Origin: Candidatus Methanoperedentaceae archaeon GB37
GTDB lineage: Archaea > Halobacteriota > Methanosarcinia > Methanosarcinales > EX4572-44
Length of the DNA: 64,000 bases
Direction of reading: 5' to 3'
Assembly: GCA_905171695.1 (NCBI GenBank)
Contig: LR991653.1
Span: 152,258 to 216,257 of the forward strand
Positions 27,384 through 64,000 of the stretch are shown here, piece after piece. Numbering within the stretch: the first letter of the stretch is position 1; every line of letters starts with the position of its first letter. Position numbers and translations under genes: made by a program. A model generated the notes under the pieces. The model searched no databases, had not been told where the DNA came from, and saw only the letters and a list, made by a program, of their open reading frames with translations.

Positions 27384-27461
27384 GATGGATTATAATAGAG
27401 TTAAGAAGGAAAGATTAGGCTTGTCATGGAATTACAAAGGACGGATAAAGAGGTTTTTGGA

Positions 27462-28238
27462 ATGATGAGACGAGTGTTAATAATGGCAATGCTTGTGAGC
27501 ATGATTGTGTTTCCCGCAGTGGCTGATGGTGTCTTGGTAGAGGTCACACCGTCTTCTGTTGACTGTGAGACTGGTGACACGTTCACGGTTGAGATACTCG
27601 TTGATCCAGGAGGATATGAGGTCTATGGTGCACAGTACAATCTGATATTTGACCCATCAGCGCTTGAGTGTGTGAGCCAGACCGCAGGCGACTTCCTGAC
27701 ACAGGACGGTGCAAGCTCGATCGAGGTCGTGAACACGATCGACAACACGATTGGTAGGCTTGAGTACGCTGAGACACGGATGGGAGCCGAGAGCGGTGTC
27801 ACCGGGGCTGGAACACTTGCACAGGTCACGTTTAAGGTGATAGGTGAGAGTGGATCAAACCTTGAGCTAAAAGATGTGATCGTGAGCAATCCAAGCGCAC
27901 AGGAACTGGAGACCTCGGTTGAGGATGGAGTCTGTCTCGTTAATGGAAACACACCAACACCTACACCTACACCTACACCAACGCCGACTGTAACAGCAAC
28001 TACAACCGATGCAGGAGAACCGCCAAATCCAACCATAACTGTGACCGAGACCATACCAGAGACACCAGCTGTGACTGTAACAGCAACTGATGCAGCTTCA
28101 ACACCCGAATCGGCAGATACCCCTGCATCCACACCCGAGACTGCAGAAACGGGACCACCAAGATCTGCACCAGGCTTCGGCATCTTCACGATATGCGCTA
28201 TCATCCTCTCGATCTACATCGTTAAAAGGAGGTCTTAA
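27462..28238 (+). CDS. Cell-surface-anchored cohesin with PGF-CTERM signal
   Basis: Protein of 258 residues. The signal peptide is MMRRVLIMAMLVSMIVFPAVA. One cohesin follows (EVYGAQYNLIFDPSALECV ... LEYAETRMGAESGVTGAGTLAQVTF). Then comes a Thr/Pro-rich stalk of TPTPTP type that is likely O-glycosylated. The C-terminus is SAPGFGIF, a hydrophobic stretch and KRRS, which is a PGF-CTERM archaeosortase signal. This is the only cluster member with a surface anchor and the only cohesin protein without a dockerin, so it could be the base scaffold to which dockerin proteins attach. I chose the ATG at 27462, seven bases after a GAGGT site, over an ATG 36 bp upstream. Confidence 0.87.
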   Translation: MMRRVLIMAMLVSMIVFPAVADGVLVEVTPSSVDCETGDTFTVEILVDPGGYEVYGAQYNLIFDPSALECVSQTAGDFLTQDGASSIEVVNTIDNTIGRLEYAETRMGAESGVTGAGTLAQVTFKVIGESGSNLELKDVIVSNPSAQELETSVEDGVCLVNGNTPTPTPTPTPTPTVTATTTDAGEPPNPTITVTETIPETPAVTVTATDAASTPESADTPASTPETAETGPPRSAPGFGIFTICAIILSIYIVKRRS

Positions 28239-57729: not shown

Positions 57730-58302
57730 CTATGCGTATCGCCCGCGCCGAGCAATCTCATCGACGCGCGATAGGACTTCATCGGCACCATCAAAGGTGG
57801 TGCGATACCCGTTCATAAACGCAGTTGCAAGTCTCTCGGCGTCTTCGTGGCTGCTTTTGAGCGTCTGGAAGAAGACGTGGAGATCGACGCCCCGTGCCTC
57901 GGTTGAGGTGTCGAAGTATGCAAGTCCAAAGTCGATCAGGTATATTCTTCCCTGATAATGGAGGATGTTCGAGGTTGTGAGATCGCCGTGGATTATTCCA
58001 GCAGAGTGCAGGAGTCCTACCACACGACCGGTCTTATGCGAGAGATCTGCATCGATCTTCTCCTTCAGCGGTCTGCCGTCGATGTACTCCATCACAATAT
58101 CGAAATCTTCGAGATCGTGTATTATTGGCGTGGGAACCCCTATGCGGCGGGCAGCAGAGATGATCCGTGCCTCGGCTCGTGTTCTCTCACGCCTCAACCG
58201 CCTATCGATCTCTTCGAGGCGATACCTCTTCGAGACTCTCTCTTTTATCACCCTGCCGTCCACACGCTTGATCACAGCCTCGGCACCAGATGCGATGATC
58301 AT
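57730..58302 (-). CDS. bud32: KEOPS complex kinase Bud32
   Basis: Atypical small protein kinase/ATPase of the KEOPS complex needed for the t6A modification of tRNA. It has VIKERVSKRYRL, the catalytic HGDLTTSN loop and DFG. At 190 residues it is a standalone protein; many euryarchaea fuse it to Kae1. It overlaps the hemB stop by four bases. The Kae1 partner gene is not in the window. Confidence 0.93.
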   Translation of the reverse strand: MIIASGAEAVIKRVDGRVIKERVSKRYRLEEIDRRLRRERTRAEARIISAARRIGVPTPIIHDLEDFDIVMEYIDGRPLKEKIDADLSHKTGRVVGLLHSAGIIHGDLTTSNILHYQGRIYLIDFGLAYFDTSTEARGVDLHVFFQTLKSSHEDAERLATAFMNGYRTTFDGADEVLSRVDEIARRGRYA

Positions 58303-62155: not shown

Positions 62156-62977
62156 TTACATCGTTCTCTTGAGCAGTCTTCCAAGGTATGTCAATGGTAG
62201 AAGAATGATTAAGAACTCGATTAAAAGACCGATGAGTCCATAGTCTCGATAGAGGAGGAGAGCCACAGGGTCTCCTCTATCTCGTTGTGGTATGAAGAGG
62301 TGTGGGAGTATCTCTCCCATGAAGTTCTTGACTCGTCTCTCTGATGCACCGAGCCCGTTCTCTACCATCGTCTCTCCCCTGACGATCGTGATCATCTCAG
62401 GGGAGCTTGCAAATATGAGTTCTTTTAAGTAGAAGTACATTATGAGTCGTTCTCGATCGTTCTTCTCGATGAGCAGCCTGTTCACCATTATCACGGCATC
62501 GCCCCTATCCCCACCTCTATCTTTGGATACCCATTTGCTCCCGTTCAGTGTGAGCGGGACCCGGGTCTCGTTCACAACGCTCCAGCCAGAGCCTCTGTAG
62601 CAGATCTTTGGATCGTGGAAGGCTGATCTGTTCTCTGCCCGTATGATGAGAAGCCATACAGGGTTTGGGCTCTCTGGTGTGTAGTATGCCCGCTCCATCA
62701 TCATATCGGGCTTAAGTGTTTCGATCACGTTCTCTTCCACTTCCACCCTGTAGCCTTTCCATTCGCCGATCTCAAGGGGGAGTCTCTCGATCGCTTCACT
62801 CTCCCCAAGCTCCATCACCGTCTTTACCCATGATCTCTCGGTTGATGTGTAGGATGGTGTGGTGTCGACCATGATTCCTCGCTGGAGGAGGACATCTGGA
62901 GGAGATAGGAGAATGATTATAATAACTGTCAGGAGCAGTATTAGAGCTACTGTTCTGTACTGATCTTTCTCGTCCAT
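62156..62977 (-). CDS. EpsI-like exosortase-associated protein (DUF3485)
   Basis: About 273 residues with one N-terminal membrane helix (about 8-27) and one near the C-terminus. The external domain has the EpsI hallmark HDPKICYRGSGWSV and the earlier PLEIGEWKG. EpsI proteins accompany exosortases in bacterial PEP-CTERM systems and are often fused to them. Here the gene overlaps the exosortase gene's end by about 30 bases and has its own GGTGT ribosome-binding site. Its function in sorting or exopolysaccharide production is not established. Confidence 0.85.
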   Translation of the reverse strand: MDEKDQYRTVALILLLTVIIIILLSPPDVLLQRGIMVDTTPSYTSTERSWVKTVMELGESEAIERLPLEIGEWKGYRVEVEENVIETLKPDMMMERAYYTPESPNPVWLLIIRAENRSAFHDPKICYRGSGWSVVNETRVPLTLNGSKWVSKDRGGDRGDAVIMVNRLLIEKNDRERLIMYFYLKELIFASSPEMITIVRGETMVENGLGASERRVKNFMGEILPHLFIPQRDRGDPVALLLYRDYGLIGLLIEFLIILLPLTYLGRLLKRTM

Positions 62978-63786
62978 CGTATACACCCGAGAAGTGCAAA
63001 TATTGAGAGGAGTGCAATGATGTAAAAGGTGAGTCCACCCCAGCCGTGAAAGTACTTCATCCCGGTCTCAACTCCATACTGCGACGCCACGATGAGCGTG
63101 ATTCCAATCCTGAGCCCGTTTGTGAATATCGCAATCGGGAGAGTCGCTGCGAAGAGAATAACCTTGTCCATCAGCGGGTCGGGTATGAGGTAGGATAGGA
63201 GTGCGACTATGGTGTAGAGTGATATGATCGAGTTGAAGCCGCTGCAGGCAGGGGCGATCTCGAATATCGTTCCATCGAGGAGGATCTGGCAACCCTCGAA
63301 GCTCGATTCAACTCCTGCGAGGTGTGAGATCGCTGTTGCAAGGATCGTCGATACGCTCTGAAGGGTGAGTGTCGCCAGATCGACTGCCGGGAGCGGGATT
63401 GCAAATATCAGAAAAGAGATCGGGAATGCGAGTCCGCGTGCCGCCTCGTAGCCTTTGAAGAGAAGGATGAGTCCGAGAAGGAAGGGTATCAGTGAGAGCG
63501 TGGCTATGAATACAGCGCCTGTGAGTTGTCCTGCAAGATAGAGCAGAACGGCTCCGATGAAGAGTAGAGGGCTTCTCCTGCTTGAAGCCTCGTGAAGGAG
63601 GTTGCGCTTCTGCCATACAAGAAACCCGGATACGAATGGGATGAGGAATCCATGGCTATAGGCATCCATCGTGAGCCATGAGCGAAGAAGCCACTCGAAT
63701 GAGCCAATGTAGAGGAGGAGAGTGGTTATGGTGAGTACTGCAAGCCAGATTCTCTTCTTCTCGATTCGCATAGTAGCACTGCGCAT
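62947..63786 (-). CDS. Exosortase/archaeosortase family transpeptidase
   Basis: Membrane protease/transpeptidase that cleaves C-terminal sorting signals. About 279 residues with eight or so helices. Catalytic triad positions: C181 in APACSGFNS, R226 in NGLRIGITL, H247 in YFHGWGG; the family start motif DAYSHGFLIPF is present. I placed the start at 63786 because a minus-strand TATA box is centred about 30 bases upstream and no ribosome-binding site is needed; 63771 is an alternative. Its likely substrate is encoded immediately upstream. Confidence 0.92.
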   Translation of the reverse strand: MRSATMRIEKKRIWLAVLTITTLLLYIGSFEWLLRSWLTMDAYSHGFLIPFVSGFLVWQKRNLLHEASSRRSPLLFIGAVLLYLAGQLTGAVFIATLSLIPFLLGLILLFKGYEAARGLAFPISFLIFAIPLPAVDLATLTLQSVSTILATAISHLAGVESSFEGCQILLDGTIFEIAPACSGFNSIISLYTIVALLSYLIPDPLMDKVILFAATLPIAIFTNGLRIGITLIVASQYGVETGMKYFHGWGGLTFYIIALLSIFALLGCIRWTRKISTEQ

Positions 63787-63859
63787 ATCAATCCAATCAA
63801 TGCTTTTAAAAATATAATGTAAATTGAAAGAATGAATAAAAAAGTGTGGATGAGATACT

Positions 63860-64000
63860 CTATCTCCTCTCACGCTTCAAAGAGGTAAAGCCGAGCACTC
63901 CGAGTATCCCCAGCGTGGTCATCGCGAGAGTGATCGGCTCCGGGACGCACTCCGCTGTATCATTGTCACCCTCGGTCTGGTCGCAGCAGCATGCACACTC
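63860..64000 (-). CDS. PEP-CTERM-like sorting-signal protein (partial, 3' end)
   Basis: The last 46 codons of a gene running off the window edge. A cysteine-rich segment (CACCCDQTEGDND) is followed by VPEPITL, a hydrophobic stretch of about 16 residues and the basic end KRERR. This is the tripartite form of a PEP-CTERM signal. It lies directly upstream of the exosortase and is very probably its substrate, an exported surface or matrix protein. Confidence 0.8.
   Translation of the reverse strand, partial: ECACCCDQTEGDNDTAECVPEPITLAMTTLGILGVLGFTSLKRERR

Follow-up and report, generated by a model that had tools for sequence, protein, structure and literature searches.

Exosortases were first described in bacteria, where a multi-transmembrane (TM) enzyme with Cys, Arg and His residues is encoded directly upstream of EpsI and is accompanied by secreted substrates, encoded next door, that end in a tripartite tail with a PE motif; the locus analyzed here shares all of these traits. 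The founding 2006 paper reported no PEP-CTERM proteins in Archaea and proposed export across the outer membrane into exopolysaccharide (PMC1569441). In Archaea the superfamily is represented by the archaeosortases: ArtA with its PGF-CTERM substrates (TIGR04125/TIGR04126), which has the superfamily signature TIGR04178 and a tripartite substrate tail in common with our system and whose processing in Haloferax comprises cleavage and lipid anchoring (PMC7157517), ArtB with VPXXXP tails (TIGR04144), and ArtC. A 2017 domain survey tabulates, without discussion, one EpsH hit each in one ANME-1 and one ANME-2d dataset, the former containing many bacterial genes according to its authors; archaeosortase A was absent from the survey's ANME-1 data, as were sorting signals from ANME-1 cytochromes (PMC5244752). 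A precedent linking CPBP proteases to exosortases and C-terminal sorting comes from four exosortase-CAAX protease fusions reported in 2006 (PMC1569441) and from the myxosortase MrtX, a CPBP enzyme acting as a C-terminal sorting protease (PMC11980579).

The window, a 64,000-nucleotide stretch (C1:152258-216257) of a single-contig genome of 1,922,745 bases from an ethane-oxidising archaeon, carries an exosortase locus at its edge, which we completed with the sequence beyond:

62156-62986, minus strand: EpsI (DUF3485), with a PF11984 match and an invariant His and Cys
62947-63873, minus strand: exosortase, 308 aa counted from a GTG at 63873
63860-~64327 (L019:2117-2584), minus strand: PEP-CTERM substrate gene (TIGR02595), with its 3' part, 63860-64000, inside the window
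~64474-65220 (L019:2731-3477), plus strand: CPBP (Rce1-like) intramembrane protease, past the window edge and divergent to the substrate gene
~65252-65482 (L019:3509-3739), minus strand: 76-aa membrane protein, beyond the CPBP gene

We assign a probability of roughly 0.8 to the reading that this locus is a complete archaeal exosortase sorting module, with sorting itself predicted from the genes, the catalytic residues, the conserved neighborhood, the recurring substrate families and the co-occurrence of tails with the sortase. Judged by sequence, the archaeon carries a genuine exosortase kit, and this kit, together with two extra parts, recurs across methane- and ethane-oxidising archaea.

The exosortase exceeds the cut-offs of both general family profiles (PF09721, 187 against 25.7 bits; TIGR02602, 154 against a curated 105.6 bits), and its triad C181/R226/H247 is invariant in an alignment of 46 archaeal and bacterial exosortases. 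These residue numbers count from an ATG at 63786 (279 aa), the start favored over the GTG by alignment with relatives; from the GTG they become C210/R255/H276. The substrate gene would overlap the exosortase gene only if the latter began at the GTG, and we reject such an overlap, as the favored ATG leaves a gap of ~73 nt. In profile searches the enzyme lies below the cut-off of every named exosortase class, the best-scoring being XrtA (TIGR03109; 155.6 against 208 bits), for which one relative from Methanoperedens reaches 192.9 bits. An AlphaFold2 model is confident (pLDDT 94.8, pTM 0.87), and searches of solved structures gave neither a sequence relative nor a usable PDB fold match. An ArtA-type identity was ruled out: the window exosortase has no TIGR04125 match at E<=1 (cut-off 75 bits), and ArtA is a separate gene in the same genome with a different tail motif. 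Likewise, the exosortase scores 20 bits with the ArtC profile, far below its cut-off of 100, and no ArtB match was listed for it. Features elsewhere in the window and genome that bear on sorting are:

27426-28238, plus strand: cohesin-domain protein in the window (PF00963, 48 bits), with the PGF-type tail SAPGFGIFTICAIILSIYIVKRRS
G000:C1:775537-776301: ArtA (TIGR04125, 230 bits)
C1:1224448-1225071: ArtB-like sortase (L024)
C1:1231673-1232110: ArtB-like sortase (L023)
C1:1422198-1423235: NosD-like beta-helix protein, the second PEP-tailed protein, with tail EIPEPVTLVMVTIGLLSLIGILYRSGVSGR

ArtA presumably serves the genome's ~8 PGF-type tails, including that of the cohesin-domain protein. A length of only 173-190 aa sets the ArtB-like proteins apart from the window exosortase, and no VPXXXP tail in the genome exceeds its cut-off. 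One ArtB-like gene (C1:1224448) lies directly downstream of a gene for a 459-aa secreted protein with the tail PAPVPALTPLGILALIGLTGLVLVVGSLGLRRKKE / VPALTPLGILALIGLTGLVLVVGSLGLRRKKE, a type missed by both the PGF and the VPXXXP profile searches. The reading of a third sortase as degenerate, with four stops, was discarded: its frame is intact, and the profile match had extended past the gene start. The genome thus encodes four sortase genes in all and at least three tail types. The sequence-only reading, which had credited the organism with two sorting systems, was correct in placing a PGF system beside the PEP system and undercounted the total, there being at least three.

The EpsI gene overlaps the end of the exosortase gene by ~30-40 nt. 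Its product passes the gathering cut-off of PF11984 (60.9 against 26.1 bits) and barely misses that of the narrower TIGR02914 (37.1 against a curated 42.8 bits); gene position and the His/Cys motif, with H124 and C129 invariant over 52 aligned sequences, agree with the assignment. The predicted structure (pLDDT 90.3) consists of a TM helix (residues 6-27), an extracytoplasmic alpha/beta domain and a second TM helix (251-275). EpsI has no sequence relatives among solved structures; its best PDB fold matches (E >= 2e-3) include Mog1/PsbP-like proteins and SciW/EagT6. The last two are effector chaperones, which bind the transmembrane segments of their secreted clients. Since these structural matches are weak, we put forward only as a hypothesis that EpsI would hold the tail helix of the substrate.

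Past the window edge, the truncated gene proved to encode a complete protein of 155 aa with a signal peptide, a Cys-rich acidic double-disulfide repeat and the tail CVPEPITLAMTTLGILGVLGFTSLKRERR. TIGR02595 matches it above the cut-off of 16 (20.9 bits in the genome search, 19.7 in the protein scan), and with a tail profile trained without the host genome it ranks first of 171 ORFs (E 0.0011). The three genes that the sequence-only reading had proposed, namely an exosortase with the C181/R226/H247 triad, an overlapping DUF3485-type EpsI and an upstream partial gene ending in VPEP, a hydrophobic stretch and KRERR, are accordingly all borne out by their profiles. The NosD-like protein falls short of the TIGR02595 cut-off (14.1 bits); its homolog in the distant archaeal family f20 is 58% identical, has the tail TEPLTLVMVTLGILGVIGAVYRKREQ and is encoded inside the f20 exosortase locus. 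By profile and pattern searches, on which the genome-wide tail counts rest, these two are the only PEP-tailed proteins recognized in the genome: a PEPxT[hydrophobic] pattern occurs in six places, against eight in a reversed control, and only in these two proteins does it form a C-terminal tail. The VPEP protein is thus not a solitary instance, in line with the earlier reading.

To see how the module is distributed, we searched relatives and public genomes. Within the order, 12 of 40 genomes (39 relatives and the host) have an exosortase match; none was found in the one other genome of the host's genus, which is 61% complete. A phylum-wide draw recovered an exosortase in 37 of 394 genomes, with no match among the listed members of family f4, to which most complete genomes of the order belong. 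Among the best 80 hits in public genomes, 29 loci are archaeal and the other 51 bacterial, the archaeal ones coming from Methanoperedens, ANME-2, Argoarchaeum/GoM-Arc1, Methanophagales (ANME-1) and Altiarchaeales. EpsI lies within 4 kb of the exosortase, fused and overlapping cases included, at all 29 archaeal and 49 of the 51 bacterial loci. Tailed proteins are encoded inside the locus in 14/29 archaeal cases, and their tails follow the consensus [VI]PE[LAP]x[TA], a hydrophobic stretch with a conserved Gly, and a basic end. Unlike bacterial tails, most archaeal ones are PEL or PEA rather than PEP; archaeal EpsI is also longer, with a C-terminal TM helix, and the host is taken to lack an outer membrane.

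Two further components distinguish the archaeal loci from the bacterial ones. A CPBP protease gene is present at 18/29 of the archaeal loci against 0/51 of the bacterial (p=1e-10), and the 76-77-aa membrane protein at 14/29 and 0/51, counts obtained among the best 80 hits with profiles built from archaeal sequences; a motif scan of the compared bacterial loci likewise found none. In contrast to the exosortase-CAAX fusions and MrtX, the CPBP protease is encoded by its own gene next to the exosortase, and in profile searches it reaches none of the cut-offs set for the named Mrt families. The gene order in f20 is 76-aa protein, CPBP, two VPEP proteins, exosortase, EpsI and glycosyltransferase; in ANME-2 and Methanoperedens it runs from exosortase through EpsI and the 77-aa protein to CPBP, followed in some by DUF1616. 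In both the host and f20 (L200:7000-7764) the CPBP retains the EExxxR and HxxxN motifs (DE replacing EE in f20), whereas the motif-2 His, retained elsewhere in the archaeal alignment, is gone from both; because of this missing residue, the two copies may be inactive. Our literature search, which did not extend to the 2012 archaeosortase paper, found no description of EpsI, PEL tails or CPBP at archaeal exosortase loci; the occurrence there of CPBP and the 76-77-aa protein is new here, and both are named as parts for testing.

Tails and enzyme co-occur across the 40 genomes: with our tail profile A5 at E<=1e-6, tails are found in 9/12 genomes with an exosortase and 2/28 without (Fisher p=4e-5), and in 7/12 against 2/28 (p=0.001) when the host (G000) and G029, whose only tails are those in the A5 training set, are scored as negative; as genomes within one family are not independent, these p-values are optimistic. 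The mismatches are G035, with an exosortase and no recognized tail, and G004 and G031, with tails and no exosortase, for which incomplete assemblies may be part of the explanation. G031 has three tails (E down to 2e-11); it belongs to the same family as G035, both are fairly complete, and the enzyme may have been lost, its gene missed or another sortase used. Substrates at the archaeal loci comprise subtilases, Ig-like proteins, NosD-like beta-helix proteins and a papain-like protease that bears a lectin domain. Two kinds recur: the NosD-like substrate is shared by the host, f20 and ANME-1, and the acidic double-disulfide repeat preceding the tail by the host, ANME-1 and ANME-2. At loci L072, L096, L107 and L122, from ANME-1 and relatives, the exosortase is accompanied by genes for subtilases with PEL tails and for the papain-like/lectin protease, which suggests surface-anchored proteases.

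Family f10 corresponds to ANME-1, as its sequences include some identical to Methanophagales contigs, and its genomes carry the exosortase and, mostly, ArtA. We considered whether the exosortase might replace ArtA in ANME-1 and dismissed this, ArtA being a separate gene in 19/22 exosortase-bearing archaeal genomes. These data on the archaeal exosortase and ArtA in ANME-1 extend the 2017 domain survey (PMC5244752).

By analogy with work on EpsH and ArtA, substrates of the module would be exported via an N-terminal signal peptide through Sec and held in the membrane by the C-terminal tail, with its [VI]PE(P/L/A) motif, hydrophobic helix and basic residues; the exosortase Cys would then attack and cleave at the PE motif, and transfer of the cleaved protein to a cell-surface acceptor, either lipid or glycan, would follow. 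EpsI, the constant partner with its two TM helices and extracytoplasmic domain, may present the tail or the acceptor, and the CPBP protease and the 76-77-aa protein would be parts of the module as archaea carry it, with a role for each only presumed. We tentatively extend this to a broader picture, which we hold at slightly less than even odds, in which alkane-oxidising anaerobic archaea would share an archaeal-only module of four components (exosortase, EpsI, CPBP and 76-77-aa protein) that works beside ArtA without an outer membrane, anchors its own set of surface proteins (beta-helix, subtilase, papain-like and acidic disulfide-repeat) to glycan or lipid, employs EpsI to shield the tail helix, and travels as one block from one archaeal lineage to another. 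An archaeal module that appears to work would make the outer membrane and bacterial peptidoglycan non-essential to exosortase function, and it offers a candidate route for surface proteins of methane- and ethane-oxidising consortium archaea, in which cell contact matters.

A complete module has to be weighed against the survival of the locus as a degenerate or orphan sortase that no longer sorts. That only two substrates are recognized, that the CPBP has lost its motif-2 His and that the 61% complete same-genus genome has no detected exosortase would fit such decay; however, the catalytic residues and all reading frames are intact, and exosortase, EpsI, CPBP and the NosD-like substrate are conserved with f20, so that we regard loss of sorting as quite improbable. 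About equally improbable is that a bacterial exosortase operon was transferred recently, for instance from a sulfate-reducing partner, and has no archaeal history. The bacterial definition of the family and the founding paper's lack of archaeal PEP-CTERM proteins (PMC1569441) would favor it, as would the ~30-35% identity of Desulfobacterota exosortases, but the trees point elsewhere. In unrooted trees, whose bacterial sequences are those closest to the archaeal motifs, a branch with 99/95 support has the archaeal exosortases on one side and, on the other, 48 bacterial rows plus an unassigned one that is bacterial by its title; only two long-branched Chloroflexi sequences fall among the archaeal ones, and a single archaeal clade is not rejected (p-AU 0.149). 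The window enzyme groups with the set from ANME-1, ANME-2, Methanoperedens, GoM-Arc1 (Argoarchaeum) and Altiarchaeales. Its nearest full-length relatives are in f20 (exosortase 66%, EpsI 65%, CPBP 60%, NosD 58% identical), and a further close relative is a fragment in G021; the compared bacterial loci, moreover, have neither CPBP nor the small protein. The patterns used to scan public genomes did not fit the window/f20 subclade (motif ACSGFNS), which makes the case against a bacterial source somewhat less firm. The label of a bacterial-style trio in an archaeon therefore holds insofar as the family was described in bacteria as exosortase/EpsI/PEP-CTERM and is not ArtA, and is not supported as a mark of oddity or recent import, given the archaeal grouping and the mostly PEL/PEA tails. 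A viral origin was also set aside, no relative having been found in viral contigs by a search sensitive to close relatives only.

A separate matter, compatible with a complete working module since it concerns origin and not function, is how the host came by its version. We consider it probable that a different archaeal lineage, close to f20, passed the module horizontally to the host, where it replaced the version native to the host's family or serves in its stead: it is 58-66% identical to that of f20, whereas the exosortase of Argoarchaeum, from the host's own family, is only 36% identical to the window enzyme, and aglJ, taken as a control, tracks species relatedness (68% to Argoarchaeum, 58-62% to f20). 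A single control gene was compared, and differential loss among module types that are ancient paralogs would look alike; the sequences suggest transfer as the simplest reading, with ancient paralogy as the alternative.

As regards wider genomic context, the window locus, unlike bacterial systems, has no large exopolysaccharide cluster adjacent to the exosortase, the nearest glycosyltransferase found being AglJ, ~4.6 kb upstream, while the exosortase loci of relatives are flanked by glycosyltransferase (GT2) and DUF1616 genes. One small contig assigned to an archaeal bin (L202:5895-7427; G113:C46) encodes an exosortase of 510 aa, extended at its C-terminus by what is likely a fused EpsI; the neighbors of this gene are sugar and asparagine-synthase-like genes, and it looks bacterial and may be bin contamination. 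In Argoarchaeum (L042, L043, L046), one exosortase copy directly follows a gene for a Bud32-like kinase, and in the window a Bud32-like gene (57730-58302) lies ~4 kb from the EpsI gene. Two further sites in the host genome involve CcmF-like genes (L019:11434-17913 and L055:7709-11236, both plus strand). At the first, one such gene and a multihaem cytochrome of 2159 aa are found ~9-18 kb away from the exosortase; at the second, a CcmF-like and a thioredoxin-like gene directly precede the gene for the NosD-like PEP-tailed protein.
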